Part shown: positions 34,540-52,641 of the stretch, one piece after another
Numbering within the stretch: position 1 is the stretch's first letter
How the letters are laid out: each line of letters begins with the position of its first letter
NCBI GenBank assembly: GCA_903840415.1
Contig: CAIMFY010000040.1
Coordinates: 1-62,816 of the forward strand
Direction of reading: 5' to 3'
DNA: 62,816 nucleotides
Origin: an uncultured Opitutia bacterium
GTDB lineage: Bacteria; Verrucomicrobiota; Verrucomicrobiia; Opitutales; Opitutaceae
Position numbers and translations under genes: made by a program
The notes under the pieces: model-generated
The model's input: the letters and a program-made list of their open reading frames with translations, nothing else
What the model was told of the DNA's origin: nothing
Databases searched by the model: none

Positions 34540-34648
34540 CCGCGACGCCGCGCGCCGTGCGCCGGGTGGGGTGCAACAGGGCAATGCGGGCGCTTGTCTT
34601 CCAAAATTCTCACGTGCAGTTTTCGGCATCACAGAACGCACGCGCCTC

Positions 34649-36178
34649 ATGTCAAATCCGAATCCTCCCGTCCCCGTCGCCCGTGCGCCACGCTGGCTCG
34701 TCTGGCTCGGGCTCCTCGCCATGGTCGGTTACGGAATATTCATCGAGCACAATTATTCCATCGTCGCGGGTGGCTCCGACTCCTCCGGTTACTTGAACAG
34801 CGCGCGTCTCTTTGCCGCCGGTCAATTGCAGACCGCGGTGCGCGCCCCGGCGGAATTCGGTCCCGTCGCCACGCTCAACCGGATGCATTTCGTCCCGCTT
34901 GGCTTCTGGCCTTATCCGAACGATCTCAAGCTCACGCCCACCTACCCCACCGGGTTGCCGATTCATTTCGCGCTGGCGTCCCTGCTGACCGACTGGACCA
35001 CGGGCCCGCGACTGATCGGGCTGTTCGCCGCGCTGGGCGCAGTCGGAATGTGCTATGCAGTCGGGCGCGAACTCGGACTCGACGCCCGCCTCGCGGTCGC
35101 GGGAACCGTGGCGCTCGCCGTCTGCCCCGTGTTTCTCTTTACGTCGTTTCAGCCGATGAGCGACACACTCGCCGGCACCTGGTGCCTCGTGGCGGTGTGG
35201 ACGGCCCTGCGCGCGCGCCGCGGCAACGGCTGGGCGGCAGCGTGCGGCACGGCCTTTGCGGCGGCCGTGCTCGTGCGGCCCACCAACTTGATCGTGCTCC
35301 CGGCACTCGTGGTGCTGCTGGGGCTTGACTGGAAACGACTCGCCCTCGCCACCCTTGGCGGGTTGCCCGGCGTCGTATGGCTCGCATTCTACAACCACGC
35401 GCTTTACGGCGGCGCGCTGCGGTCGGGTTATGGCGACTGGCTGTCCGCCTTCGCGTGGTCGTGGGGCCCGCCGACCGCGTGGCATTTCGTCAAATGGCTC
35501 GCGCTGCTGCTGCCCGCGCCACTCCTGCTGCTGCCGTTCGCCGCGCTCGCCCGAAGCGAGACGCGCACGCGGCACCTGCTCGCCCTCGCGGTGTGGTTCG
35601 CCGCGGTCACCGGCCTCTATGCGTTCTACGAAGTCTCACACGAAGTCTGGTGGTGCCTCCGCTTCATCGTGCCCGCGCTCCCTGCGCTGATTCTCGCCGG
35701 CCTGCTCGGAGTCGAGGCACTCGCCCAACGCCGGGCGGAAGCGCAGCAGGATCGCTTCCGGTCGTGGGCCGCGCTCACGATCGCGCTCTGGGCGGTCGGT
35801 GTCTCCGTATTTTGGACCCGCCACTATGCGATCATGGACACCAAGAACGGCGAAAAGATTTTCTCGAAGACCTGCGCTGCCGTGCGTGAACAGGTTCCGC
35901 CGGGCACGCTGATCACCACCATGACCTTCAGCGGCGCTTTTTATTACTACACGGATTTCAGCATCCTTCGCTGGGATCTTGTCGAGCCCGCGGAATTTGC
36001 GCGGTATGCCGCACTCGCTCGAAAGGCCGGCCGCGCGATTGTGGCCGTCGACTACAAGTTTGAGGAAAAGCGGATGATTGAGGAGCACTGCCCCGGCAAC
36101 TGGGTGAAAATTGGCGAGGTATTTGACGCCGACATCTGGCGGCTCACGCCCGCTGTGGCGACCACCGCATCCAAATGA
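34649..36178 (+). CDS. GT-C-like (GT39-type) membrane protein
   Basis: A 509-residue protein with about 11 hydrophobic segments. S-D-S-S-G-Y-L-N-S-A-R after the first helix is the acidic outer-loop motif, followed by P-T-Y-P-T-G-L-P, like the acidic and P-x-Y-P motifs in GT39/PMT-type proteins. The C-terminal domain after the last helix is soluble (I-V-A-V-D-Y-K-F-E-E-K-R). It is coupled (ATGA) to the next GT-C-like gene and is divergent from a paralogue of that gene; it is related only in fold to its neighbours. Confidence 0.72.
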   Translation: MSNPNPPVPVARAPRWLVWLGLLAMVGYGIFIEHNYSIVAGGSDSSGYLNSARLFAAGQLQTAVRAPAEFGPVATLNRMHFVPLGFWPYPNDLKLTPTYPTGLPIHFALASLLTDWTTGPRLIGLFAALGAVGMCYAVGRELGLDARLAVAGTVALAVCPVFLFTSFQPMSDTLAGTWCLVAVWTALRARRGNGWAAACGTAFAAAVLVRPTNLIVLPALVVLLGLDWKRLALATLGGLPGVVWLAFYNHALYGGALRSGYGDWLSAFAWSWGPPTAWHFVKWLALLLPAPLLLLPFAALARSETRTRHLLALAVWFAAVTGLYAFYEVSHEVWWCLRFIVPALPALILAGLLGVEALAQRRAEAQQDRFRSWAALTIALWAVGVSVFWTRHYAIMDTKNGEKIFSKTCAAVREQVPPGTLITTMTFSGAFYYYTDFSILRWDLVEPAEFARYAALARKAGRAIVAVDYKFEEKRMIEEHCPGNWVKIGEVFDADIWRLTPAVATTASK

Positions 36179-37734
36179 TCCCCTCTCCTTCGCGTCGCCG
36201 CTGGCTCGTGCCACTCGCCGGCCTCGCCGCAGTCGCTGCGTTTCTTCTGCTGGTCGCACGCTTCTGGCATCCGGTTTATGGGTTCACCGCGCTCATCCAG
36301 CTCGACGCGTCGAACGACGAAGTAAAACTCACCGCGTTTCGCGAACTTCCCGTTTTCGTCCACCGCCACAACGGCGGTTACGACGGCCTCTACTACGCCC
36401 AGCTCGCCCTCGATCCGAGCCTGCGCGATCCGCAATTGCGCGGCGCGATCGACAACTTTGCGTATCGCGCCCGCCGCATCCTGCCGCCGGCGTTGGCGTG
36501 GACGCTCGGCGCGGGTCGGCCCGAGTGGATCGTGAAAATTTATCCGCTGCTTAACCTCGCGGCGTGGCTCGCTCTCGCCGCGATGCTGTGGCGGCTGCTT
36601 GCGGTCGAAAACGCCCGTGGGCTCCTCCCGTGGGTGGGTGTGCTTTTCTCCGCCGGTGCGCTCGTCAGTGTGCGCCTCGCGCTGACCGATCTCGTCGCGC
36701 TCGCCATTCTCACCGGTGCACTTTGGGCCGTGGAGCGAGAGCGGAAAAAATCCGCGCTCTTCGGGCTCGCTGCCGCAGCACTCGCGAGAGAAACATCACT
36801 GCTCGCGTTCACGGGACTCATCGAGCGACCGTGGTTTTCCGCGAAAAATCTTCTGCGCGCGCTGGCCGCCGTCGCCCCGCTGGCGGCGTGGCTCGCCTAC
36901 GTGCGGTGGCGCGTCGGCCCAGCGGACCAAGGTTGGGATAACCTCACAGTGCCCGGCGCCGGTTTCGTCGAAAAATGGCACGCAGCCCTCAGCGCCACGC
37001 AGACGCTTCCGGACAAACTGCTCGCGTGGACGACAGTGCTGGCGACGCTCGGACTCACGGTGCAGGCGGTGTTTATCGTCGCCCGCCCGCAGCTCGACGA
37101 TCGCTGGTGGCGCGTCGGCATCGCATATGTCGCGCTGATGCTCGTCCTCGGTCGCGCGGTGTGGGAGGATTTTCCCGGCGCGGCGATGCGCGTGCTGCTG
37201 CCGCTCACGCTGGCGTTCAACGTCCTCGCGCATCGCGTGCGGGCACCGATCGTGTGGCTGCTCGTCGGCAACCTCGGGGTGTTCGCCGGATTGCTCGCGT
37301 GGCGCGACACTCCGTTTGCCGCCCAGGAACTCGCTGCCGCGCGCGCCGGCGACACCGCCGCCATCGTGCGGTCCGGCGAAGGTTGGTTTCCGATCGAGCG
37401 GCACGGTCGGCAAACGTGGCAGTGGACCAAGGACCGCGGCGCGATCGTCGTCGAGACTTGGTCGCGCACGCGGCCAGTAACAGTGGAACTCGAGTTTGCC
37501 CTCCGCAGTCTGGTGCCGCGCACCATCGTGCTACGGCAGGAAGGCCACGATTTGTGGCGAACCGAAGTCGGCAACACGCTGGCGACGCACCATCTCACTG
37601 TGCCGATCGCGGCGGGTCACGGCACGATTGAGTTTTCGACCGACACTCCTGGCATCCGCGAAAGCGCTGCGCCCGACGCGCGTTCGCTGGCGTTTGCGCT
37701 TTATGATCTGCGGGTGTCGGTGGCAGAAAAGTAA
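36175..37734 (+). CDS. GT-C-like membrane protein with C-terminal WQWT beta domain
   Basis: A 519-residue polytopic paralogue of the protein encoded at 32.9-34.5 kb on the other strand. Shared features are the GYDGLYYAQLAL loop, A-R-E-T-S-L-L, V-W-E-D-F-P-G-A-A-M-R-V-L-L-P-L-T-L-A-F-N, and the C-terminal beta domain starting at T-W-Q-W-T-K-D-R-G. The start overlaps the previous gene. Two such copies flanking a different GT-C gene look like an inverted duplication. The role is probably addition of a lipid-linked sugar. Confidence 0.72.
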   Translation: MIPSPSRRRWLVPLAGLAAVAAFLLLVARFWHPVYGFTALIQLDASNDEVKLTAFRELPVFVHRHNGGYDGLYYAQLALDPSLRDPQLRGAIDNFAYRARRILPPALAWTLGAGRPEWIVKIYPLLNLAAWLALAAMLWRLLAVENARGLLPWVGVLFSAGALVSVRLALTDLVALAILTGALWAVERERKKSALFGLAAAALARETSLLAFTGLIERPWFSAKNLLRALAAVAPLAAWLAYVRWRVGPADQGWDNLTVPGAGFVEKWHAALSATQTLPDKLLAWTTVLATLGLTVQAVFIVARPQLDDRWWRVGIAYVALMLVLGRAVWEDFPGAAMRVLLPLTLAFNVLAHRVRAPIVWLLVGNLGVFAGLLAWRDTPFAAQELAAARAGDTAAIVRSGEGWFPIERHGRQTWQWTKDRGAIVVETWSRTRPVTVELEFALRSLVPRTIVLRQEGHDLWRTEVGNTLATHHLTVPIAAGHGTIEFSTDTPGIRESAAPDARSLAFALYDLRVSVAEK

Positions 37735-37737
37735 ACC

Positions 37738-38928
37738 ATGCCCGCGCCGCTGCTCCTCGACCTCACGCACACGAGCCACACCCGGGCGCGGACTGGCATC
37801 CAGCGGGTCACGCGATCGCTCTACGCGGAGCTCGGACCGCAGGCAGTCGGCATCACGCACGACCCGCACATGGGCTGGTGGCGCCCGATCGAACCGTGGG
37901 AGACCGCCAATCTCACCGCCGCCGACGCGGCCGCGAAACGCAGCGCCCAATGGCCGCTCACGGCGAAGCTGCGTGGGCGGCTCCAGCGTTGGCGCGGCCT
38001 CCGTGCCGCGGTCAGTCCTCAACTTACACGCCTCCACTCGTCAGGCCTCATCGTGCCGGAAGTGTTTTCTCCCGCGGTCGCATCCGCGCTGCCAGCGCTG
38101 CTGGCCACGACGCGCGGCCCTCGCATCGCTCTCTTTCACGATGCGATCGCGTTGAAATTTCCGGAGCTGACGCCGACCAAAACCGTCGCGCGCTTCCCGG
38201 CTTATTTGCACGAGCTGCTCGCGTTCGACGGCATCGCAGCAGTCTCGGAGGATTCGCGCGATTCACTCGTCGATTACTGGCACTGGCTCGGCGTGCGCGC
38301 GACTCCGCCGGTGCAGGCGATCCCGCTCGGCGTCTCAGTTCCAGCGCGACTATTCACCAGCACGATCGCTCCCACCGCGGATCCCGTTGTGCTCTGCGTC
38401 GGAACGATCGAGGGACGGAAGAACCACCTCGCGCTGCTCGACGGGTGCGCCCAGCTCTGGGCCGGCGGTGCGCGTTTCCAGTTGCGCCTGATCGGGCTCG
38501 CGCAACCCGACACAGGGCGAGCGGCCCTCGCGTGCATCCGAAGTTTGCAGGCGGCAGAGCACACGCTGCGCTACGACGGACCGCTCGGCGATGCAGCCGT
38601 CTCGACGGCTTACGACGAATGCACGTTCACGGTTTATCCGTCGGAAATCGAAGGCTTCGGTCTGCCGGTCGTCGAAAGCCTCGCGCATGGCAAACCCTGC
38701 CTGTGCTCGCAACGAGGCGCCCTCGGCGAATCGGCTCGCGACGGCGGCTGCATGTCATTTGAGCACATGGATGCGACCACCCTCGCCGCTGGAATCGCCC
38801 GGCTGCTGCAAACACCCGACGAGTTGGAGGCTCTGACATCCGCCGCGCGGGAGCGACACGTTCGAACCTGGTCGGACTACACGCGCGATCTGGTCGCATG
38901 GCTGGGTTCGCTCCCGCGACGGAATTGA
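37738..38928 (+). CDS. GT4 glycosyltransferase
   Basis: A 396-residue GT-B enzyme. The N-terminal D-L-T-H-T-S...R-T-G-I-Q-R-V loop is characteristic of a GT4 subgroup found in O-antigen clusters. In the donor domain V-G-T-I-E-G-R-K-N-H binds phosphate, and Y-P-S-E-I-E-G-F-G-L-P-V-V-E-S holds the E-x7-E motif. The gene begins three bases after the GT-C-like gene stop, after a G-A-A-A-A-G stretch that may serve as a weak ribosome site. A distant relative lies at 40.2-41.2 kb on the opposite strand. The sugar is not known. Confidence 0.85.
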   Translation: MPAPLLLDLTHTSHTRARTGIQRVTRSLYAELGPQAVGITHDPHMGWWRPIEPWETANLTAADAAAKRSAQWPLTAKLRGRLQRWRGLRAAVSPQLTRLHSSGLIVPEVFSPAVASALPALLATTRGPRIALFHDAIALKFPELTPTKTVARFPAYLHELLAFDGIAAVSEDSRDSLVDYWHWLGVRATPPVQAIPLGVSVPARLFTSTIAPTADPVVLCVGTIEGRKNHLALLDGCAQLWAGGARFQLRLIGLAQPDTGRAALACIRSLQAAEHTLRYDGPLGDAAVSTAYDECTFTVYPSEIEGFGLPVVESLAHGKPCLCSQRGALGESARDGGCMSFEHMDATTLAAGIARLLQTPDELEALTSAARERHVRTWSDYTRDLVAWLGSLPRRN

Positions 38929-39017: not shown

Positions 39018-40214
39018 ATGGCGTTATCTTTTTTTTCGAAGAACAAGAAGGCGATTCAGGCCCGCTGCCGGGACGATTACCCGACGAAAATGCGGCTGAA
39101 ATACGCCCCGTATTACCATGCCATGGAGGCGCAGAACGGCACGACCGTCACGCTCGACGGGCGCGATGTCATCATGCTTTCGAGCAACGATTATCTCGGG
39201 CTCTCGTTTCACCCAAAGGTCGTCGAAGCGGCGCGCGCGGCGATACTCAAGTGGGGCACGAGCACCAACGGCGCCCGCATATCGAACGGCTCGCGGTCGT
39301 TTCATCTTGAGCTCGAGGCTAAGCTGGCGGCGTTTCTTGGCCGCGAAGCCTGCCATGTCCACGCCGCCGGTTATCTTTCTTGCATGTCCTCGGTCGCTTC
39401 GTTTGCCCAAAAGGGCGACGTGATTTTCGCCGACAAGAACATTCATTCCTGCCTCTGGGACGGTATCCGCCTTTCGATGGCGACCGTCGAACGCTTCTCG
39501 CACAACAACCCCGACGATTTGCGCGAGGTCATCGCGCAGACCAACACCGACGCGCCAAAGATGCTCGTAATGGAGGGCGTTTACTCGATGGAGGGCCACA
39601 TCGCCCGGCTGCCTGAAATCGCGGAGATCGCCGAGGAGAATGGACTTTTCTCGGTGCTCGACGATGCGCACGGCTTCGGCGTGCTGGGCCGCCAGGGCCG
39701 CGGCACCGTCGACAGCTTCGGGCTCAACGACAAGATCGACGTCATCTGCGGCAGCATGTCGAAGTCGCTCGCGAGCGTCGGCGGTTTCGTCGCCGCCTCC
39801 AACGAAGTCATCGACTATCTTCGCTCGCATTCGAAGCAGACCACATTCTCGGCTGCGCTCACGCCCGCTCAGGCTGCCGCCTCGATGGCCGCGCTCGACG
39901 TCATGCAGACCGAACCGCAGCACCTCGAACGCCTCTGGGCCAACACGAAAAAATACAAGGCCATCCTGAAGCACCTCGGGTTCGACACCTGGGAAAGCGA
40001 AACGCCCGCCGTCCCGATCGTGCTGGGCTCGAAGGAGCGCGTTTACCCGTTTTGGAAGGCGCTGCTCGATCGCGGCGTGTTCACCGTCATGTCGATCGCG
40101 CCCGCGGTTCCCGCCGGCAAGGATCTTATCCGCACCGCCGTCTCGGCAATGCACACGGATGAGCAGCTCGAAAAAATCGCGGACGCCCTCGCCTACGCGA
40201 TGAAGAAACTCTGA
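39018..40214 (+). CDS. Alpha-oxoamine synthase, serine palmitoyltransferase-like (PLP)
   Basis: A 398-residue fold-type I PLP enzyme of the BioF/KBL/SPT family, which joins an amino acid to an acyl thioester with loss of CO2. The substrate-binding S-S-N-D-Y-L-G-L is at 55-62, a PLP-stacking His143 in N-I-H-S-C-L-W-D-G, D215-D-A-H218-G, and the Schiff-base Lys249 in G-S-M-S-K-S-L-A-S-V-G-G-F. The neighbouring ketoacyl synthase, ACP-dehydratase and glycosyltransferases favour an SPT-like role over biotin synthesis (inference; no other bio genes). A run of eight T in codons 4-7 could allow slippage. BioF or KBL are the alternatives. Confidence 0.8.
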   Translation: MALSFFSKNKKAIQARCRDDYPTKMRLKYAPYYHAMEAQNGTTVTLDGRDVIMLSSNDYLGLSFHPKVVEAARAAILKWGTSTNGARISNGSRSFHLELEAKLAAFLGREACHVHAAGYLSCMSSVASFAQKGDVIFADKNIHSCLWDGIRLSMATVERFSHNNPDDLREVIAQTNTDAPKMLVMEGVYSMEGHIARLPEIAEIAEENGLFSVLDDAHGFGVLGRQGRGTVDSFGLNDKIDVICGSMSKSLASVGGFVAASNEVIDYLRSHSKQTTFSAALTPAQAAASMAALDVMQTEPQHLERLWANTKKYKAILKHLGFDTWESETPAVPIVLGSKERVYPFWKALLDRGVFTVMSIAPAVPAGKDLIRTAVSAMHTDEQLEKIADALAYAMKKL

Positions 40215-40226
40215 GCGTCCACGCGC

Positions 40227-41243
40227 TCACGCCGACAGCGTCTGGCGGATGGTCTCGGCAGCAGCAGCCCAGGTCGGCAGCGCTCGGGTCGTTGCCTCTT
40301 GCTCCAAGTGCGCGAGCCATCCCTCGTCAGTTAGGACGCGCCGCAACGCCGCGCACCAAGCCGTGCGATCGTTCACCGCGACAGGCACGCAGCCGCCACC
40401 ATCGGCGTTTTCCCGCAGCACCGGCAAGTCGCTGCACACGCACGGCACGCCCATCCACAGCGACTCGAGCAGCGGCAATCCGCAGCCCTCGGCGATCGTC
40501 GGGAACACTGTAGCCCGCGCCGTGGCATAGAGCCGGGCGACATCGGCGTCACTCGCCGCCTCGCCGTAGTGCAGGCCGGAAAACTTTTCTTCGAGCGATC
40601 GGATTCGCGCCACGAGCGGCCGACCGAAATGCGGATTAACGCGACCCACGAGATTCAGATCGAATCGCAATCCCTCGCGCCACAGTTCCTCACAGACATC
40701 GAGCAGAAAGGTCTGATTCTTGCGCGGCTCGAGAATGCCCACGCACAGCAGGCCGGAGGTCAGGGGCGAGGGCCGCAAAGTCACGCGCGCTGCCGCGTTG
40801 AAATCAGCCCCGAGCGAGAGCACCTCGACCGGCGGGACTTTCTCGACGCCCTGCCAGCGCCAGAACCCGAACAATTCCGCCCGGCTCGCCGCCGACACTG
40901 CCCACACCCGATCAAACCGCGCCAGCAACTTCATATAACCGGGATGCCGCGCCACGCTCTGCGGCCAAGTGATCTGCGGATGCTTCAGCGGAATCGCGTC
41001 GTGAAAGATCGCTGCCAGTCGGCAGGGATGCGCCGCAAGAAAATCCGAGAAGCCCGGGCGTTCCTCCTCAGAAAAAAGTTCACCGGTGAAAAACCAGTCG
41101 TCGGTTCGCACACCCTGTTTCCACTCCGGCCAGCGGACTTCGGTCGCCGCGGCGCCGAGCCCGTCCGCCAGCCGCGCACTCACGCGCATCAGTCCGGAAC
41201 GATGCCCCGATGAACCCGCTTTCGTGACATCAAAATAAATCAT
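40227..41243 (-). CDS. GT4 glycosyltransferase
   Basis: A 338-residue GT-B enzyme. M-I-Y-F-D-V-T-K-A-G...S-G-L-M-R-V is the same type of N-terminal loop as in the GT4 at 37.7 kb. The donor domain shows V-G-I-L-E-P-R-K-N-Q and P-T-I-A-E-G-C-G-L-P-L-L-E-S with the E-x7-E motif. The start overlaps the stop of the upstream GT4 gene (ATGA); the long frame upstream of it is a shadow. It is the last gene of the minus-strand lipid-like operon, convergent with the alpha-oxoamine synthase. Confidence 0.85.
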   Translation of the reverse strand: MIYFDVTKAGSSGHRSGLMRVSARLADGLGAAATEVRWPEWKQGVRTDDWFFTGELFSEEERPGFSDFLAAHPCRLAAIFHDAIPLKHPQITWPQSVARHPGYMKLLARFDRVWAVSAASRAELFGFWRWQGVEKVPPVEVLSLGADFNAAARVTLRPSPLTSGLLCVGILEPRKNQTFLLDVCEELWREGLRFDLNLVGRVNPHFGRPLVARIRSLEEKFSGLHYGEAASDADVARLYATARATVFPTIAEGCGLPLLESLWMGVPCVCSDLPVLRENADGGGCVPVAVNDRTAWCAALRRVLTDEGWLAHLEQEATTRALPTWAAAAETIRQTLSA

Positions 41244-42505
41244 GGCTTGAGCGCGCGCAGCATCAGCGCATGGAGCCGCGCGGCATTCTTGTGGGCATCG
41301 TAGTTTTCTTCCACCCATGTGCGGCCCACCGCCCGAAGTTTTTCGGCGAACACGTCGTCCGTCGAGAGTCGCCGCAACGCGCTGATCCAATCGGCGGGCG
41401 CATCGACCGCCGCGACGAGACCGGTCACGCCATGCGTCACCGCCTCGGTCGTCGCCGCCGCGGCTGAGGTAATCACGAGGACGCCGACCGAAAGTGCTTC
41501 CGGAATCACGTTGGGCAGACCGTCGCGATCGCCACTGGGCGCGATCACGCCGGTGTGCAGAAGCACGTCGGCCCACGCGAGCTGGCTCCAGACTTCATGC
41601 TGGGCCAGATGACCGGTGAACGTCAGTTCCGCCGCGATACCGAGATGGCCGGCCAGTCTTTCCAATTCCTGACGCAGCGGGCCATCGCCCACGATGCGCG
41701 CTTCGAACGCCACGCCCGCCGCCCGCAGCGCCGCGTAAATCCGCAGTTGATGATCGAGGCCCTTCTTCTCGACGAGACGCGCCACGCAGACGAGGTGAAG
41801 CGGGGCGCGCGAGGCCCGCAGCGGCTTCATCGCGGGCAGTCGATCGAGGCCGCGCCGAATGCAAAAAATTCGATCGGTGGCGAGACCGCGCGCGATCAGC
41901 GCTCGGCGGCCCATCTCAGTCGAAGTATGAATGAAGGCCGCGTGTTGCAGTTTGTCATCCAACCACCAGTCGCCGCCGTGTTCGTAGATGTCGTAGGCGT
42001 GCGCCGCGGCGCTAAACTTGTGTCCGTCCATGCGCCAGAGCAGCCAGGCCGCGGTCGCCGGCGCGCCGCCCCACGCGGCGTGGACGAGCGCTGGTGGATT
42101 TTTTCGAAACGCCCGCGCCTCCAGACAGGCGAAGCCGGCGCCGAGCATGTTCTCCCAAAAATTCAGCCACGACGGCGCGCGCCGCGTGAACAGCCCCCGC
42201 AGCAGCTGGCGCAGCACCTCGGGCCGCCGCCACGCTTCCGCCGGGATCAGCCAAATCAGCGTGAGGAGTCGCCATTTGTTGAACCGCGCCACTGGCATAC
42301 CACGGAAGGTGCCCCCACCGCCCCACAGCGAAAAGAGCCGGAGCTCCGCGCCTTGAGCGCGCATCGCGATCACTTCGCGTTGCAGAAACGTCTCCGTGTT
42401 TTTGGGAAACGTCGTGAAGAGATAGGCGATGACAGGCGCAGCGTTCGGCAAGATCGTGCCAGTGTGGGCTTCGCCTAGCGCCCGGCAACGCGGAAGAGGC
42501 GTCAC
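41240..42505 (-). CDS. GT4 glycosyltransferase
   Basis: A 421-residue GT-B enzyme. L-F-T-T-F-P-K-N-T-E-T-F-L starts the acceptor domain. V-A-R-L-V-E-K-K-G-L and P-N-V-I-P-E-A-L-S-V-G lie in the donor domain; the E-x7-E motif is modified to D-R-D-G-L-P-N-V-I-P-E-A. The GTG start overlaps the stop of the GT28 gene (GTGA), and the stop overlaps the next GT4, so three glycosyltransferase genes are chained by overlaps. This is consistent with ordered addition of sugars to one acceptor. Confidence 0.85.
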   Translation of the reverse strand: MTPLPRCRALGEAHTGTILPNAAPVIAYLFTTFPKNTETFLQREVIAMRAQGAELRLFSLWGGGGTFRGMPVARFNKWRLLTLIWLIPAEAWRRPEVLRQLLRGLFTRRAPSWLNFWENMLGAGFACLEARAFRKNPPALVHAAWGGAPATAAWLLWRMDGHKFSAAAHAYDIYEHGGDWWLDDKLQHAAFIHTSTEMGRRALIARGLATDRIFCIRRGLDRLPAMKPLRASRAPLHLVCVARLVEKKGLDHQLRIYAALRAAGVAFEARIVGDGPLRQELERLAGHLGIAAELTFTGHLAQHEVWSQLAWADVLLHTGVIAPSGDRDGLPNVIPEALSVGVLVITSAAAATTEAVTHGVTGLVAAVDAPADWISALRRLSTDDVFAEKLRAVGRTWVEENYDAHKNAARLHALMLRALKP

Positions 42506-43743
42506 TTCGCCGCGCGACCGTGGCCATTACCATTACCGTTTGACGACGGCGGAAACGGACGACGGCGGATCGGTTTCTCGCCAGCCGCTTCGTTTGCCAG
42601 CGCCACGACTTCCTCGATCAGAATCGTCGGATCCTCCTCGTAGCGGAGTTTCAGGAAGTTGGCGCGCACGGTATCGTAGGCGGCGGGGTTCGCCAGCCAA
42701 GTGTCGATGAGGTGGCCAAAGTCGGCGGCGTCCTCGATTTTTTCGGAGGCGGCGCCGTTGCGGAAAAATTTCCACGTGAGCTGCTCCTGCGGCATGATGC
42801 CGCCAAACGCGTTAAAAATAATAGGGCACTTGAAGTGCAGGGCCTTCGCGCAGGTCGTCGTGCCGCCGCGCGTGACGATCACATCGCTCGCCTGCATATA
42901 AAGGTGGACGATGTCGGAGTAGCCCTCGATGTGGCAGTCGAATTCCGGGTGCGTGGCGCGCCAGTGGACGAGTTCGTTGTAGGCTTCCTTGTTGCGGCCG
43001 CAAATGACGATCGCCTGCACGCGGTCGGCGTGGGCGAGCAGCACCGGCAGGAGCTCGTGGTGGTTGTTCGCCCCGTTGCCACCCGTCGCAAGAAAGAAGG
43101 TGAACTTGTCGGCATCGAGGCCGAGCCGCTTGGATTTGAACACGCGCCGGTCCACCGGCGAGAGCACTTCGAGGTGCTGGCGCGGCAGCATCAGGTAACC
43201 GCGCACGCGGGTTTTCTCGATGGGAATGCCGGACTTCACCGCGAAGTCGCGCGCCGTCGGCGTGCGCGAAAAATAGAGATCCACCGTCGGCTCGATCCAG
43301 TTACGGGAGTAGCCCCAGCCACCGGAAAACTCGCCACAATACGTGGCGCAGCGCACCTTGTCGGCGCCGAGCGTCGTGCGGGCGAGTTGAAAATAGCCGC
43401 GGTTGAGACAGTCGTGCACACTGAAGATGAGGTGCGGTTTATACTCCTTCAGCACCTTGACATAATAGCCGGCCCCAAAGGTGACGTCGCTGCGGTTGAG
43501 CCAACTGAGCACTTCGACAACGGCATAGAACAGTTTGTGCACCCACGGCGCGCTACGCTGGATCCGGTTGTAGAGGTTTACGCCGGTGCGGTTCACGGCG
43601 GAGGATTTCTCGAGCATCTGCTCGATGCGCACATCGACATCGTGCCGATAAAGCTGGAAACACCACTCCGCGAAAGCCTCGGCGCGGGCATCGTGGCCGC
43701 CGCCGGTGCTGGAAGTGAGAACGAGAATGCGAAGCTTGGACAT
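42502..43743 (-). CDS. MGDG-synthase-like GT28 glycosyltransferase
   Basis: A 413-residue GT-B protein. The N-terminal S-S-T-G-G-G-H-D-A-R-A-E-A-F matches the GGGH motif of monogalactosyldiacylglycerol synthase and processive diacylglycerol glucosyltransferases, which glycosylate a lipid at the membrane. The central S-V-H-D-C and C-terminal R-G-G-T-T-T-C-A-K-A and P-Q-E-Q segments fit the donor site. An N-G-N-G-N-G-H-G tail closes it. It is embedded between an SDR/ketoacyl synthase pair and two GT4 genes, so the acceptor is probably the lipid made by them (inference). Confidence 0.85.
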   Translation of the reverse strand: MSKLRILVLTSSTGGGHDARAEAFAEWCFQLYRHDVDVRIEQMLEKSSAVNRTGVNLYNRIQRSAPWVHKLFYAVVEVLSWLNRSDVTFGAGYYVKVLKEYKPHLIFSVHDCLNRGYFQLARTTLGADKVRCATYCGEFSGGWGYSRNWIEPTVDLYFSRTPTARDFAVKSGIPIEKTRVRGYLMLPRQHLEVLSPVDRRVFKSKRLGLDADKFTFFLATGGNGANNHHELLPVLLAHADRVQAIVICGRNKEAYNELVHWRATHPEFDCHIEGYSDIVHLYMQASDVIVTRGGTTTCAKALHFKCPIIFNAFGGIMPQEQLTWKFFRNGAASEKIEDAADFGHLIDTWLANPAAYDTVRANFLKLRYEEDPTILIEEVVALANEAAGEKPIRRRPFPPSSNGNGNGHGRAAK

Positions 43744-43749
43744 GTCGGG

Positions 43750-44592
43750 TCAGGTGACGTCGAAATACTTTGCCTGAAGGCGGCGCTTAAACGCAAGGGA
43801 GCCGAAGCGGGCGAGAAATGGCGCCACCACGGCTTGAAAGAAACGGCCTGTGCGCACGGTGCCGCTACGCTGGCGCAGCAGGGCCCGACGGAGTGCGACG
43901 GCGGCGTGCGCCGGCGCCGGACCGCTTTTCATCATAGCGGCAAACGCGGCCCAGGCGCGCGTCTGACGCGGCGATTCGTTGGTGAGGGGACGCAGCACGG
44001 AACCTTCGAAATCGGTCCGATAATCGCCGGGCCGGACGTCGAGGACAATGACGCCGGTGCCGGACGTTTCGAGCAGCAGGCTTTCGTTGAGCGCGGTGAG
44101 GCCCGCCTTCGCGATGTTATAGGCGCTCTGAAACGGCAGCGGAAATTCGGCGGCAAGTGACGAGACGTTAACGAGCGCACCCCGATTACGCGCGAGGAAG
44201 CCACGGAGCGCGGCGTGCGAAAGGCGCGCGGTGTTGACGAGCATCACCTCGAGCTGAGTCTGCCAGACGGGAAACTCCACCGCTGCAAACTCGGCAAAGA
44301 CACCGTAGCCGGCGTTGTTGACGACGAGATCGAAGCCGCCGGCCTCGGCCTCGGATGCATGAAACACCGCCTCAGCGTGTGCCCCGTTCCGCAGATCAAG
44401 CGAGACCGCGGTGAACAAATCGGCGTGCGCCGGCACGGCGGAAAAATGATCAAGCCGCGCGACGTCGCGCGACGTGCCCCACACTCGCACACCGTCGGCG
44501 AGCAGCATGGCGGTGAACGCGCGCCCCAGCCCAGTGCTGGCGCCCGTGACGAACGCCGTGCGGTAAAGATCGGAAACGCGGTCGGCGGGCAC
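43750..44592 (-). CDS. Short-chain dehydrogenase/ketoreductase
   Basis: A 280-residue classical SDR. T-G-A-S-T-G-L-G binds NAD(P), N-N-A-G-Y-G at 92-97, catalytic Ser about 144 in N-V-S-S-L and Y158-N-I-A-K162 are intact. Size and motifs suit either a beta-ketoacyl or 3-ketosphinganine-type reductase; context next to a ketoacyl synthase and an alpha-oxoamine synthase fits both. GTG is the start. The C-terminus has basic and hydrophobic residues that could touch the membrane. Confidence 0.8.
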   Translation of the reverse strand: MPADRVSDLYRTAFVTGASTGLGRAFTAMLLADGVRVWGTSRDVARLDHFSAVPAHADLFTAVSLDLRNGAHAEAVFHASEAEAGGFDLVVNNAGYGVFAEFAAVEFPVWQTQLEVMLVNTARLSHAALRGFLARNRGALVNVSSLAAEFPLPFQSAYNIAKAGLTALNESLLLETSGTGVIVLDVRPGDYRTDFEGSVLRPLTNESPRQTRAWAAFAAMMKSGPAPAHAAVALRRALLRQRSGTVRTGRFFQAVVAPFLARFGSLAFKRRLQAKYFDVT

Positions 44593-44598
44593 AACGGT

Positions 44599-45861
44599 TT
44601 AGGCGACGCGTTTTAGGACGAGGGCGACATTGGCGCCACCGAAGCCACTGCTGTTCTTGACGACAATATTCGCAGGAGTGTTTTTAGTCGTGAGGGGAAT
44701 ATTCAAGCCGGCGCATTCGGGTTCGATCTTGGTGAGATGGGCGTTGCCGGGGATGAAGCCCTCGCGCAAAGCGAGGCCGCAGAAGCCGGTTTCCATCGCT
44801 CCGGCGAGCGAGAGACCGTGGCCGGTGAGCGCCTTGGTGCTGCTGACGAGCGGGCGCCTCGCTGCGTCCTTGAAAACTGAGCGTAACGCGCGCGCTTCGG
44901 AAATGTCGCCAATGAGTGTGGACGTCGCGTGGGCGTTAACGTAATCGACCTGCTCGGGCGCGACGTGCGCGGCCCGGAGCGCGAGCTTCATTGCCGCCGC
45001 CGAGCCGCCACCCTCGGGATGCGAAATGGCGACGTTGTAGCCGTCGGACGCCTGCCCCCAGCCGAGAAATTCGGCATATGGCGTGATGCCCCGGCGCACA
45101 ACCTCGTCCTCGGTTTCGAGCACGATCACTGTGGCGCCGCCAGTGCCGACAAAACCGTCGCGCGCGGCATCGAACGGACGCGAAGCGAGATTCGGATCGG
45201 TTTGCAGGGAAAGCGTTCTCATGCCGGCGAAGGGCAGGATGGCGTCGACGTTGCCATCTTCCGCACCAACGACGAACATCCGTTTCTGCCGTCCGAGCAC
45301 GAGGTCGTCGAAAGCGTAGCCGAGCGCGTGCGCCGACGAGGCACAGGCCGACGAGAAACCGCACGAAACGCCCTGAATCTTAAAAGCAGCGATGAGGTTG
45401 AAGTTCAACGTGCCCGCGATCGAGGCAACGATACCGAACGGTGTGCACCGCATCACTCCGAGCTGTTTGAGTCGGTCGTTGTGGTGATGCAGGAGAAAAG
45501 GCGAACCCGCGGAGGCGGCGTAAAGTCCAGTGTCCGGATTGGAAATATCAGGCTCAGTCAGCTTCGCATCTGCGACCGCTTGAAGCATGGCGCAGTGAGC
45601 GAATAATCCGTTGGGGGCCATCGTACGCAGCAGCTCACGCTTGATTTTGTAGGCCGCGGGAAAAGTCCAGTCCTCGGGATCGGTCGAATCGGTGCCAAAA
45701 TCCTTGATCGTGCCAATGACTTTACAGGGGATATCGGGCTTTTGAAACGGCGGGTAGAGTTCGAATCCGTGGCGCAACTCACGGAGGCTGCGCGTGACGG
45801 TGCCGGCGTCGTTGCCGATGCTTGTGACGAAACCGAGACCGGTAAGAAAAACTCGAGGCAT
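44599..45861 (-). CDS. Beta-ketoacyl-ACP synthase (KAS I/II-like)
   Basis: A 420-residue thiolase-fold condensing enzyme. Catalytic Cys173 sits in S-S-A-C-A-S-S-A-H-A-L, His311 in N-A-H-A-T-S-T (usual G is A), K343 and His348 in S-S-T-K-A-L-T-G-H-G-L-S-L-A-G-A-M-E. This triad extends acyl chains from malonyl-ACP. It is a single KAS with its own ACP-dehydratase upstream, so it is probably a specialised chain-length enzyme rather than the housekeeping FabF. Its GC-rich leader lies after a terminator that ends the ACP-dehydratase transcript. Confidence 0.9.
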   Translation of the reverse strand: MPRVFLTGLGFVTSIGNDAGTVTRSLRELRHGFELYPPFQKPDIPCKVIGTIKDFGTDSTDPEDWTFPAAYKIKRELLRTMAPNGLFAHCAMLQAVADAKLTEPDISNPDTGLYAASAGSPFLLHHHNDRLKQLGVMRCTPFGIVASIAGTLNFNLIAAFKIQGVSCGFSSACASSAHALGYAFDDLVLGRQKRMFVVGAEDGNVDAILPFAGMRTLSLQTDPNLASRPFDAARDGFVGTGGATVIVLETEDEVVRRGITPYAEFLGWGQASDGYNVAISHPEGGGSAAAMKLALRAAHVAPEQVDYVNAHATSTLIGDISEARALRSVFKDAARRPLVSSTKALTGHGLSLAGAMETGFCGLALREGFIPGNAHLTKIEPECAGLNIPLTTKNTPANIVVKNSSGFGGANVALVLKRVA

Positions 45862-45973
45862 GCGTTGGGAAAACGGCGCCGGACAGGCCGGCGAGGCCGA
45901 CGGGTGCCGTTAGGAGAGTCGGAAGTGAAGGCGGTTCGCGGACGGCGGTCAACGCGGGAGGGACGCCGATTCG

Positions 45974-46005
45974 ACAAAAAACGGCGACCAAAATCGGCCG
46001 CCGTT
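45974..46005 (-). terminator. Rho-independent terminator between ACP-dehydratase and ketoacyl synthase genes
   Basis: On the minus strand the stem AACGGCGGCC/GGTCGCCGTT (10 pairs, one G-T) encloses GATTTT and runs into a T-tract. It lies about 30 bases after the ACP-dehydratase stop and before the ketoacyl synthase gene. The two may therefore be expressed at different levels or from separate promoters. Confidence 0.8.
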
Positions 46006-46035
46006 GAAATCGAGAAGCAGTGAATCGGGGCTCAC

Positions 46036-47025
46036 TCAGCCACCCATCGCTACGCGCAGCGGCGGCGTGGCGGCGGCGGACTCGGCGCTACTCGCTGCGG
46101 AACCGTGGTCGGCGCCGTTGACGGTAATCGGCACGGGCTGGTTGACGGCATCGACGAAGCCAAACGTGAGAGTGATTTCCTCGACAATGACGGCTTTCTC
46201 TTGACCGACACGAATCGAGCCTTCGAACGTCGCGAGCGGCATTTTCATCCGCTTCGGCTTGATCGAAAGTGTCAGGATGTCTCCGGGTTTGCACTGGCGG
46301 TGGGCCCGCACGCCCTCGCAACCGGTGAAAAAAATCATCTGTGAACTGACCATCTTGCCAGGTTCCGTCGGCGCACCTTCGAGCAGATACAACACCGCAA
46401 GCTGACCTAGCGCCTCGAGCATAATCGAGGCGGGCATGACGGGGTTATCCTTAAAGTGGCCTTGCAGGAAGAATTCCTGGCCGGTGATTTTGTATTTGCC
46501 GTTGGCCGCGGTGGAACTGACGGAGGCTTCGTTGAGAAAAAGGAACGGCGGCTGGACCGGCATGACCGAGCCGATGTGCTCGATTGGGATGAATTTCGTG
46601 GGTTTGGGCAGAGGCAAACCCCTAATCTTGCAGTCAATAAAGGTCTTCACGTCTCCGACCGTGCGCAGGTTGCGCAACTCGTCGTTGTTAATCGTCATCT
46701 GGAGGACATCTTCCACAAGAATGACGATTTCCATCATCGTCAGCGAATCGATACCCAAATCCTCGATCAACCGCAGGTCGTCGTCGGCATCCTTCAACTT
46801 GATCCGCAAATCCGGCTCCACAAAACGCTCAATCACGCCAATCACCACCGCCGGGACGTGCTCGGCATTGCCGGTCTTCCGGAATTGCACCGCCGCCTCG
46901 AATGTCGAGGGCGAACAACGCTTCAGGGCCTCGCGCAGAGCCGCCTCGTCTTCGGGAGCGAAGGGTTTCGGAGTAGGTGGATTTGGCTTGGCGGTGCCCA
47001 GGCTGGATGAGACTGCGTCTGGCAT
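46036..47025 (-). CDS. ACP-dehydratase fusion (ACP domain plus FabZ/FabA-like hot-dog)
   Basis: A 329-residue protein. Residues about 55-135 form an acyl-carrier-protein domain with the phosphopantetheine Ser94 in L-G-I-D-S-L. Residues about 145-300 form a FabZ-like hot-dog with His190 in Q-G-H-F-K-D-N-P-V-M-P and Glu204 in L-E-A-L-G-Q. The two are normally separate genes. A clear AAAGGA ribosome-binding site precedes the ATG, the only strong one in the glycan and lipid blocks. It heads the minus-strand locus and is divergent from a GT4/thioesterase pair. Predicted role: carries and dehydrates the growing acyl chain. Confidence 0.88.
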   Translation of the reverse strand: MPDAVSSSLGTAKPNPPTPKPFAPEDEAALREALKRCSPSTFEAAVQFRKTGNAEHVPAVVIGVIERFVEPDLRIKLKDADDDLRLIEDLGIDSLTMMEIVILVEDVLQMTINNDELRNLRTVGDVKTFIDCKIRGLPLPKPTKFIPIEHIGSVMPVQPPFLFLNEASVSSTAANGKYKITGQEFFLQGHFKDNPVMPASIMLEALGQLAVLYLLEGAPTEPGKMVSSQMIFFTGCEGVRAHRQCKPGDILTLSIKPKRMKMPLATFEGSIRVGQEKAVIVEEITLTFGFVDAVNQPVPITVNGADHGSAASSAESAAATPPLRVAMGG

Positions 47026-47249
47026 GGTTTGTCCTTTGTATGTTGGGAGGAGAGGTAAAGTAAACCCATTATTTCTTGGTCAGCGGTGCGGCCGATGGAA
47101 CGGTGGCACCGAGGTAGGTTCCGGATCTACAATAATTTTCGCCACTCACCCGCATGGAGCGTGCTTGCAAGAGACGCGTTACCGGCCAATTCTTGCGACG
47201 TCATCAGGCAATGGCCGCGCCTTGTTCCGCGATGCCAGCTACCCTGCGC
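47026..47249. promoter_or_regulatory. Divergent intergenic region between ACP-dehydratase and GT4 genes
   Basis: A spacer of 224 bases between two divergent operons. On the minus strand an AAAGGAC ribosome-binding site lies just before the ACP-dehydratase ATG, and a weak CTGACC/TACTTT pair lies farther upstream. No clear promoter is visible for the other direction. Codons in frame with the GT4 extend into this spacer but look non-coding. Confidence 0.45.
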
Positions 47250-48407
47250 ATGAGCGCCATTTCTACCTTCCCGACTTCCAAATCAGTTTTCCTAATCACC
47301 CACGAGTTCTATCCGGTGCGAGGGGGCATCGCGACGTTTACGGAAGAAATCGCTCGGGCAACCGCTGGCTTGGGCTACAACGTCGAAGTCTGGGCCCAGT
47401 CCGCCCCGCGCGGGGCTGAAAAATCCGACTGGCCGTTCCGGCTCCGTCGCCTGCCGCTCAAGGGTTCGCACGATCTGCTGTGTCAGGTGCGGCTGGCCCG
47501 CGAGCTCATCCGGCACCGCCGCGACCTGCGCCACGCCACCGTCTACTTGCCGGAGCCCGGACCGATGATGACGATGATGCTGCTGCAGTTTTTCCACGCG
47601 TTTCGCCCCCGGCGGCTGGTACTCACGTTTCACGGATCGGAAATCCTAAAATTCGCCGATAGCCCGCTGCGGCGCCGGTTGACGCGCCGCCTCATCAGCC
47701 ATGCCGCGCGCATCAGCACGCTCAGCAACTACACCCAGGAACTCCTCCTCTCCCACTTCCCTGAGGCGGCGGAGAAAATTTTCCTCACCCCGGGCGCTCT
47801 GCGTTCCGATTTTGCCGTGGTGCCGCCCAAGCCCGCCACGACGAAGAATAAGATCGTCGTCCTAACCGTGGGCCGTCTCCACCCACGCAAAGGCCAGCTG
47901 CTCACGCTCCAAGCCCTCCAGTTGCTCGCGCCCGACGTCCGCGCTCGCCTCGAATATTGGATCGTCGGAGGTCAGAGCAAATCGAACTACGAAGACCGGC
48001 TCCGCACTGCAGCCGAAGACTCTGGGGTCACGGTAAAGTTCTTCGGCAACATCCCCGATGAGGAGCTTTCCGATCTTTATGAGCGCGCCGACATCTTCGC
48101 GATGACGAGCATCAACCACGGCCACAGCATCGAAGGCTTCGGTCTTGTTTACCTTGAAGCCGCCGCACATGGACTGCCGGTCGTCGCCCACGATGTCGGC
48201 GGTGTTTCCGAGGCCGTGATCGACGGCCAGACGGGCCTGCTGGTCCCGCCGCATCGGCCTGCACAACTCGCCGCCGCGTTCGAGAAACTCATTCACGATG
48301 CCCCGCTGCGTCGCCGTCTCGGCACCGCCGGTCGGGCTTGGGCCGCGCGCAACTGCTGGAAAGAATCCGCCGAGGCACTCTTCCGCCCCTCCGAGATCGA
48401 CGAATGA
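47250..48407 (+). CDS. GT4 glycosyltransferase, PimB-like
   Basis: A 385-residue GT-B enzyme. Y-P-V-R-G-G-I-A-T-F begins the acceptor domain; H-G-S-E-I and L-S-N-Y-T-Q-E line the active site. V-G-R-L-H-P-R-K-G-Q and E-G-F-G-L-V-Y-L-E-A-A with the E-x7-E motif belong to the donor domain. PimB-like enzymes mannosylate lipids. It overlaps the downstream thioesterase gene (ATGA) and is divergent from the ACP-dehydratase gene, so it is likely part of the lipid locus. Several in-frame ATGs upstream leave the start uncertain by a few dozen codons. Confidence 0.82.
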   Translation: MSAISTFPTSKSVFLITHEFYPVRGGIATFTEEIARATAGLGYNVEVWAQSAPRGAEKSDWPFRLRRLPLKGSHDLLCQVRLARELIRHRRDLRHATVYLPEPGPMMTMMLLQFFHAFRPRRLVLTFHGSEILKFADSPLRRRLTRRLISHAARISTLSNYTQELLLSHFPEAAEKIFLTPGALRSDFAVVPPKPATTKNKIVVLTVGRLHPRKGQLLTLQALQLLAPDVRARLEYWIVGGQSKSNYEDRLRTAAEDSGVTVKFFGNIPDEELSDLYERADIFAMTSINHGHSIEGFGLVYLEAAAHGLPVVAHDVGGVSEAVIDGQTGLLVPPHRPAQLAAAFEKLIHDAPLRRRLGTAGRAWAARNCWKESAEALFRPSEIDE

Positions 48408-48805
48408 TTCAAACCCGCGCTCAGGTCACGGTCCGCTATGCCGAGACCGACATGATGGGCATCGTTTACCACGCCAATTATCTGCCGTGGTTCGAGGTCG
48501 CCCGCACGCAACTCCTCAAGGAGCAAGGCTTCCCCTACCGCCAACTTGAGGCCGATGGCTACCGCATCCCCGTCCTCGAAATTGCCGCAAAGTTTGTCCG
48601 CCCTGCGCTCTACGACGACACCGTGACGATTGTCGCCACCATTCGGGAAAAACCGCTCCTGCGCATTCGCATCGAGTATGAAATTTTTCGCGGCGAGGAA
48701 CTTCTCGTCACGGGCAACAGTGCCCACGCCTTCTGCGACACCAAGGGCCAGCCCACCCGCCCGCCAGCGGCGTTTGTCGCGAAAATGAACGAAGCGTTTA
48801 GGTAG
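48404..48805 (+). CDS. Hot-dog acyl-CoA/ACP thioesterase, YbgC/FadM-like
   Basis: A 133-residue single hot-dog domain. V-R-Y-A-E-T-D-M-M-G-I-V-Y-H-A-N-Y holds the catalytic Asp-x-x-G and the Tyr/Asn block typical of 4-hydroxybenzoyl-CoA thioesterase-like enzymes. It hydrolyses acyl-CoA or acyl-ACP. Coupling to a GT4 and proximity to the ketoacyl synthase suggest release or editing of the acyl chain (inference). Its end overlaps queG on the other strand by eight bases. Confidence 0.85.
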   Translation: MIQTRAQVTVRYAETDMMGIVYHANYLPWFEVARTQLLKEQGFPYRQLEADGYRIPVLEIAAKFVRPALYDDTVTIVATIREKPLLRIRIEYEIFRGEELLVTGNSAHAFCDTKGQPTRPPAAFVAKMNEAFR

Positions 48806-52491: not shown

Positions 52492-52641
52492 GCGATGACT
52501 TTGGGTGTGAAGAACAGAAACGGCGGCAGAGAGTTTGTGCCGTAAAAGTTGTCGGATGTGCCAGCGCACCCGGGCAAATGCAACCAATTACTCCCCGCTT
52601 GTGTCGCACGCCCCAACTCATCATTTCTTCCCGTCCTACCA

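Follow-up and report, generated by a model that had tools for sequence, protein, structure and literature searches.

What does a bacterial locus make when it sets an alpha-oxoamine synthase (AOS) among fatty acid enzymes and glycosyltransferases? We addressed this question for positions 39018 to 48805 of a 62,816-nucleotide stretch (contig CAIMFY010000040.1 of assembly GCA_903840415.1, our contig C40; hereafter, the window) from an uncultured Opitutaceae bacterium whose genome assembly amounts to 4.9 Mb and is 98% complete. An earlier note on this DNA had proposed a glycosphingolipid-like product, an interpretation that our analysis partly supported. With a probability of roughly 0.5, the locus encodes a dedicated, family-wide Opitutaceae pathway for a glycosylated long-chain-base (sphingoid-type) lipid, whose chemistry (substrates, N-acylation and product) we infer from gene identities, conservation and co-occurrence that were observed directly.

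Gene content and conservation of the locus

All of the genes named in the earlier note were found in their places: the AOS, a beta-ketoacyl-acyl carrier protein synthase (KAS), a short-chain dehydrogenase/reductase (SDR), a fusion of acyl carrier protein (ACP) and dehydratase, GT28 and GT4 glycosyltransferases and a thioesterase. This gene set was confirmed as real, and the catalytic residues named for it are intact. The features are listed below in window positions; GT37, GT40, GT41 and GT47 are our labels for single GT4 enzymes.

37738..38928, plus strand: GT37, a GT4 glycosyltransferase upstream of AOS, probable associate
39018..40214, plus strand: AOS, 398 aa, grouping with serine palmitoyltransferases (SPTs) as a subfamily of its own
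40227..41243, minus strand: GT40, a GT4 glycosyltransferase, 338 aa, ATG start at 41243
41240..42505, minus strand: GT41, an EpsE/WcaL-like GT4 glycosyltransferase, GTG start
42502..43743, minus strand: GT28, similar to monogalactosyldiacylglycerol (MGDG) synthase by profile and predicted fold
43750..44592, minus strand: classical SDR, C-terminally extended, Y158/K162, possible 3-ketosphinganine reductase
44599..45861, minus strand: KAS of FabB/FabF type, C173/H311/H348
45980..46005, minus strand: terminator-like hairpin between ACP-dehydratase and KAS, 11-pair stem followed by Ts
46036..47025, minus strand: ACP-dehydratase fusion, an extended ACP (D93-S94) and a FabZ-like hot-dog domain (H190, E204)
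47154..48407, plus strand: GT47, a GT4 glycosyltransferase divergent from ACP-dehydratase
48404..48805, plus strand: 4HBT (YbgC/FadM) thioesterase, TIGR00051 89.6 bits, above cut-off

The gene set is kept by most of the sampled Opitutaceae, across the whole family, and the conservation in relatives that had been expected was borne out by the family-wide occurrence of AOS and ACP-dehydratase and by a recurring gene order. Among 120 genomes of the family, AOS matches at E ≤ 1e-60 were found in 111 (some being paralogues only), ACP-dehydratase matches at 1e-20 in 111 (a few being ACP paralogues only) and GT28 matches at 1e-30 in 110, of which 12 reached 31-40% identity only. The matches were curated by hand (G, L and C numbers are our labels for genomes, loci and contigs). 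AOS matches of at most 42% identity were taken as paralogues and scored absent (G044, G072, G087, G113), and a contig-edge match of 145 residues at 78% (G083) was scored present. For ACP-dehydratase, stand-alone ACP-like matches (G105, G108) counted as absent, and split forms (G005, G053, G117) and partial matches (G086, G107) as present. GT28 matches at 31-40% identity were scored absent and high-identity partials (G010, G028, G036, G080, G086) present. After curation an AOS orthologue was counted in 107 of the 120 genomes; AOS and ACP-dehydratase were both present in 102 and both absent from 6, with only AOS missing from 7 and only ACP-dehydratase from 5. The 96 genomes that are at least 90% complete gave 88 with both, 3 with neither, 4 lacking only AOS and 1 lacking only ACP-dehydratase, and the 75 that are at least 95% complete gave 72 with both, 3 with neither and no discordant case (Fisher 1.5e-5). 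The three genomes without both are G044, G061 and G097; as G044 and G097 are of the same genus, these represent two or three independent losses and the Fisher P overstates the evidence. In a sample of 288 genomes of the phylum, AOS matches at 1e-85 occurred in 34, namely 23 of the family, 7 outside it and 4 others. The 7 share 53-63% identity and all have ACP-dehydratase (G262 its ACP part only), and the 4 others, at 37-45% identity, were placed with canonical SPTs by tree and neighbours.

The genes fall into two modules. In the window lineage, as in some others, these stand side by side, and elsewhere they are apart; the SDR goes with either. The gene set of the earlier note holds as a conserved set made up of these two modules. 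Within about 10 kb of AOS in 40 family loci we found GT40 in 30, GT41 in 27, GT28 in 21, SDR in 18, KAS in 17 and ACP-dehydratase in 17; KAS lay no more than 2.5 kb from ACP-dehydratase in 41 of the 46 loci with that fusion. Deep lineages (G012, G048, G008, G077), and also G088, keep AOS-GT40-GT41-GT28-SDR in order and carry a separate second module, KAS-ACP/dehydratase-GT47-thioesterase-QueG. In other families of the class the SDR follows KAS (L119, L120, L121), one cluster in G262 holds AOS, GT41, SDR, KAS and an ACP, and the modules lie 11 to 14 kb apart in G356 and G192. The KAS module carries GT28 and GT41 in G227 and G241. GT47 is found in 16 and the thioesterase in 14 of 20 second-module loci; the divergent GT4-thioesterase pair described earlier is present, and it travels with the KAS/ACP-dehydratase module. 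GT37 stands beside AOS in many near relatives and is absent from most deep ones.

In the window, KAS, SDR, GT28 and two GT4 genes form a tightly packed run, with 6-bp gaps at the KAS-SDR and SDR-GT28 junctions. The overlaps said to chain the GT4 genes were seen at the GT28-GT4 (GTGA) and GT4-GT4 (ATGA) junctions, and another ATGA overlap joins GT47 and the thioesterase at 48404. The second GT4 gene of the run starts at ATG 41243, not at the start of a 449-aa open reading frame (ORF), and AOS faces the run from the opposite strand, convergent and across a 12-bp gap. Terminator-like sites in the region numbered 13 against 9.4 expected, the hairpin at 46005-45980 having the longest stem. Because this hairpin lies ahead of KAS, the ACP-dehydratase gene may be a separate transcript. 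The arrangement of the locus is not due to chance, since the same arrangement recurs in other genomes.

The alpha-oxoamine synthase and the ceramide genes

By sequence comparison, the AOS is placed with the SPTs as a fully supported subfamily of its own, distinct from the canonical ceramide SPTs. Its NCBIfam scores were 392 bits for SPT-CFB, 358 for the BioF/Kbl subfamily, 351 for SPT-beta and 327 for BioF, all under cut-off. The closest solved structures are the Sphingobacterium SPTs 8guh and 3a2b; the match to solved SPT reached 321 bits, against 197 for the solved cysteate acyltransferase 28eh. Residues K249, H143, H218, N57 and R372 align with SPT 8guh and are invariant across 20 window-type sequences; we take them to be the catalytic Lys, the His and the carboxylate Arg and Asn, the last belonging to the SPT serine-carboxylate site. 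In a midpoint-rooted tree of 46 rows, the 20 window-type AOS formed a single clade (support 100/100) on a long branch (0.95). A split supported at 95/94 put them on a 33-row side with 12 canonical SPTs and one ungrouped row, and KBL, BioF and AOS fused to polyketide synthases (PKS) fell outside it. The pyridoxal phosphate (PLP) enzyme, described earlier as of SPT/BioF type, therefore sides with the SPTs and not with BioF or KBL. Among the SPTs, the enzyme encoded on a Rubrobacter plasmid is nearest to the clade (90/93, not starred). All 20 window-type AOS and 11/12 canonical SPTs have the motif G[SA]R-x-x-NG (the Rubrobacter enzyme has TG), which occurs in 0/8 KBL/BioF rows and 0/5 PKS-fused rows.

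Other identities for the AOS were rejected. KBL failed on scores (321/460 and 255/493 bits against the glycine C-acetyltransferase cut-offs) and on the tree, and the KBL of this genome is another gene, on C94, above its cut-off. BioF failed on scores (326.7 of 426 bits) and tree, and ALAS, which was not included in the tree, on score only. The genome has a third, diverged AOS-like gene (L254, G000:C83:49745-50827; 217 bits to BioF), which adjoins an apparent dipeptide epimerase, judged by eye.

Canonical bacterial ceramide loci were represented by clusters resembling Spt-bCerS-CerR on a Klebsiella plasmid (L124) and a Rubrobacter plasmid (L126). The bCerS and CerR roles in these were assigned from position and annotation, and we assume that their second and third genes belong to the bCerS and CerR families. 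With one bCerS query, no match at E ≤ 0.01 was detected in the window genome; the same query matched 3 of 20 genomes, namely 2 of 17 that bear the AOS and 1 of 3 that lack it. PF04339, presumably a bCerS-linked family, also had 0 matches in the window genome. Scans for protein families in the locus and some of its flanking DNA named no CerR, no genome-wide CerR search having been made. A Spt-bCerS-CerR-like cluster occurs in G060, G085 and G093 at a place separate from the window-type AOS, and G009 has a Klebsiella-type ceramide cluster without a CerR match. Wherever bCerS stood beside an AOS in the mapped loci, that AOS was a different paralogue. As further observations, three canonical-looking Opitutaceae loci (L211-L213) gave Spt, bCerS and CerR matches and a fourth (L216) gave Spt, AMP-ligase and bCerS matches; the genomes concerned have the window-type AOS as well.

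A third kind of AOS was found in five Opitutaceae genomes, where a type I PKS-AOS fusion is followed by a bCerS-like acyltransferase (L208 was read, L207, L209 and L210 are long open frames, and L215 was assigned by similarity). By analogy, these loci are reminiscent of SgaAB of Pseudomonas fluorescens.

Because no bCerS was found in the window genome, any N-acylation of the base would be the work of an unrelated enzyme, if it happens at all. PMC11334938 notes that unrelated proteins may take the place of bCerS and CerR. One candidate partner was rejected: a 401-aa protein on C47 (L240), in another ACP-KAS cluster, has no Pfam or NCBIfam family and no BLASTP similarity to bCerS. It is not the constitutive partner, being present in just 9 of the 120 genomes of the family. 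All-against-all clustering of ORFs of at least 100 aa around the loci, many of which are overlapping frames, showed no further recognisable conserved partner among the top 46 groups.

Chain building, reduction and glycosylation

The KAS and dehydratase appear dedicated, as the earlier note had it, being extra copies in a genome that has five further KAS domains and two further FabA/FabZ domains. Judged by eye, an apparent housekeeping fabG-acpP-fabF set and an LpxC-FabZ fusion lie elsewhere; with these other domains at hand, the KAS/dehydratase set of the locus is additional. C173/H311/H348 of the KAS were invariant in 19 aligned KAS (17 window-type and 2 others from the window genome), and S94, H190 and E204 of the ACP-dehydratase in 23 sequences. 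H190 and E204 lie 14 residues apart and presumably correspond to the catalytic His and Glu of FabZ, both of which are present; the NCBIfam FabZ score was 68/113, under cut-off. Aryl polyene clusters are defined by a paired KS/CLF (ketosynthase and chain-length factor) and partners. The locus has a single KAS without such a pair, which, in line with the earlier note, speaks against that class.

Three further sites in the genome carry related domains. L240 (G000:C47:32000-46000) has an ACP and a KAS, the latter sharing 55% identity with the window KAS (the fabF-like KAS of the genome is 36% identical), then an alpha/beta hydrolase, a HAD phosphatase, a class III aminotransferase, an EamA transporter and the 401-aa protein of no known family; it looks like an aminolipid cluster. 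L239 (G000:C119:33000-41100) holds in a row a KAS, a small ACP-like ORF and two FAD oxidoreductases of amine oxidase type flanking a TIM-barrel gene, then a FabA-like dehydratase, an enoyl-reductase-like SDR and a KAS III, and is another putative lipid or polyketide cluster. On G000:C14 and in relatives (L230, L231, L234), extended ACPs that stand alone and share 52-58% identity with the ACP of the fusion lie beside apparent sigma factor/FecR/TonB-receptor genes (by eye); these loci look unrelated.

The SDR had been read as a chain ketoreductase. An SDR with Y158/K162 is indeed present, the two residues being invariant in 16 orthologues, and its proposed role has changed: it weakly resembles a 3-ketosphinganine reductase and may be one rather than a ketoreductase of the chain. 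NCBIfam KdsR (NF049977) matched all 16 orthologues, below its cut-off, and had the best E-value among families common to all 16; it was the top family in 2 of 9 singly scanned SDRs (L120, L121). The C-terminal part is extended by a conserved RxGxFFQ...P segment where we would expect the ending of FabG. A fold search with the SDR model led to SDRs of a general kind, including FabG, and pointed to no particular substrate. A proven bacterial SDR-type 3-ketosphinganine reductase, BT_0972, is described in PMC9278070.

The GT28 is of a lipid type, as proposed earlier, with MGD1 nearest by both profile and predicted fold. Its profile matched MGD1 (4wyi) at E 7.5e-33 and a processive diacylglycerol glucosyltransferase at 1.5e-29 in the PDB, MurG scoring far lower, and for the predicted model (pLDDT 88.9) the nearest fold was MGD1, E 3e-17. 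In Pfam, MGDG_synth narrowly missed its gathering score (24.9 vs 25) and Glyco_tran_28_C passed (28.6 vs 22).

Two neighbours outside the locus recur with it. Window positions 34571-37734 encode two large neighbouring proteins that have no Pfam match and look membrane-like by eye; such pairs repeat upstream of AOS in relatives, with three pairs in L074. At 52549-54549 lies a 666-aa protein with a lysine-decarboxylase-like (LOG) domain at its C-terminus, found near AOS or ACP-dehydratase in L073, L091 and L098 at 76-78% identity.

Proposed pathway, rival readings and known systems

Overall, we provide a putative pathway in which each step is drawn from the enzyme family of its protein. On the fused ACP, an acyl chain would be built or finished by KAS and the dehydratase fusion together with a ketoreductase, either housekeeping FabG or the SDR of the locus. 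The AOS, as a relative of SPTs, would condense this acyl thioester with an amino acid, of which serine is the most likely, to form a 3-keto long-chain base, whose 3-keto group the SDR would reduce. The MGDG-synthase-like GT28 would then add the first sugar, the GT4 enzymes would extend it, and the thioesterase may clear or release chains. According to PMC12134224, SgaAB, an SPT and a KDSR homologue, make sphinganines and PG-sphingolipids 154 Da heavier in Pseudomonas fluorescens; therefore, it is conceivable that the base carries no amide-linked acyl chain. We speculate, tentatively and with the odds against it, that the product is a family-wide class of glycosylated sphingoid lipid made without bCerS, in which a type II KAS chain on the ACP-dehydratase is handed directly to the new SPT subfamily, maybe a non-N-acylated glyco-long-chain-base acting as a structural envelope lipid.

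Several observations weigh against a dedicated long-chain-base pathway. The AOS reached none of the curated SPT cut-offs (392/640, 351/500 and 266/670 bits), and the window SDR scored 82.8/400 bits for KdsR NF049977, only its 20th-ranked match, with the best relative at 160/400, also under cut-off. The PKS-fused AOS are likely SPTs, judging from SgaB, yet they lie outside the SPT split and do not have the motif; tree and motif therefore neither prove nor exclude SPT activity. Regarding gene content, 9 of 40 family loci have no other core gene within about 10 kb of AOS, the search found no KAS next to ACP-dehydratase in G238 and G310, a close GT28 orthologue has been lost or replaced in 10 of 72 AOS-bearing genomes of at least 95% completeness, and three order-level genomes (G227, G235, G266) have KAS/ACP-dehydratase without AOS at E ≤ 1e-85.

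These last three genomes also suit the idea that two independent pathways merely adjoin, AOS making a sphingoid or amino-ketone lipid and the KAS/ACP-dehydratase with glycosyltransferases another chain or glycolipid. The separate loci of the deep lineages and the KAS modules with GT28 and GT41 in G227 and G241 fit as well. However, AOS and ACP-dehydratase are present or absent together without exception in the 75 genomes of at least 95% completeness, no more than about 15 kb separates the modules in G262, G356 and G192 of other families, and the SDR occurs with either, so we regard such independence as rather unlikely. We also doubt that the AOS takes alanine, glycine, cysteate or some other amino acid into a 1-deoxy, capnine-like or other amino lipid: with 321 bits to solved SPT and 197 to the cysteate acyltransferase 28eh it is nearer to the former, and it keeps the residues that align with what we assume to be the SPT serine-carboxylate site. 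What speaks for a substrate other than serine is the separate subfamily on its long branch (0.95), under all SPT cut-offs, together with the statement in PMC11334938 that Spt can use alanine, other amino acids being proposed.

An ordinary glycoceramide, formed by the canonical pathway with a diverged or unrelated N-acyltransferase, would explain an SPT-related enzyme among glycosyltransferases, and the three ceramide genes do lie apart in Bacteroidota (PMC11334938). We consider it improbable, however, since the bCerS search matched 2 of the 17 genomes with AOS and 1 of the 3 without it, the window genome not being among them, and the AOS mapped next to bCerS is a different paralogue. Hardly probable at all is that the AOS serves biotin synthesis as the missing BioF of this genome. 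No AOS scored above the BioF cut-off in any of 10 genomes, the window genome included, and the third AOS-like gene on C83 is not beside apparent bio genes (by eye); against this stand the 326.7 bits versus a cut-off of 426, the tree placement and the recurrent neighbours, which are glycosyltransferases and KAS/ACP genes, although no search aimed at bio genes was made.

If the glycosylated long-chain-base reading is true, the family would be a large added group of likely sphingoid-lipid makers, whose members come from lakes, groundwater and peatland, judging by isolate names. It would also represent a second route, one in which an SDR-type enzyme does the reduction, and would offer a case open to testing in which an SPT-like enzyme is supplied by its own type II fatty acid module. 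Spt, bCerS and CerR together are the usual mark of bacterial sphingolipid makers, and the locus would escape the bCerS/CerR part of such a search. PMC11334938 reports 22 Verrucomicrobiota metagenome-assembled genomes with Spt-like proteins in the Black Sea. We recognised no description of the locus in the literature searched on Verrucomicrobiota or Opitutaceae sphingolipids and on the gene combination, subscription journals lying mostly outside that search.

Among known systems, the Sphingobacterium SPT (3a2b/8guh; NF047600) resembles the AOS in tree grouping, in PLP and carboxylate residues and as the best PDB match. In contrast to bacterial SPTs, the AOS forms a separate 100/100 subfamily, stays under the curated cut-off and has no bCerS or CerR neighbours that we could see. 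The canonical Spt-bCerS-CerR cluster (L124, L126, Opitutaceae L211-L213) shares the SPT-type enzyme with the window locus, and an ACP stands beside Spt in the Klebsiella and Roseomonas ceramide examples. The window locus differs in that no bCerS was detected in its genome and in that reduction is predicted to proceed by a classical SDR rather than the epimerase-like CerR. Like the window SDR, KdsR (BT_0972; PMC9278070) is a classical SDR with YxxxK, and the NCBIfam KdsR match extends to 16/16 orthologues, whereas the window protein scores 82.8 bits against a cut-off of 400. For the GT28, MGD1 and the processive diacylglycerol glucosyltransferase share fold and profile, at about 19% identity to MGD1. 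Finally, SgaAB(C) of Pseudomonas fluorescens (PMC12134224) parallels the proposed pathway in its order of dedicated chain machinery, AOS and SDR, with SgaAB making free sphinganines. Its chain machinery is a type I PKS, whereas the window locus has a discrete KAS, an ACP-dehydratase fusion and glycosyltransferases.

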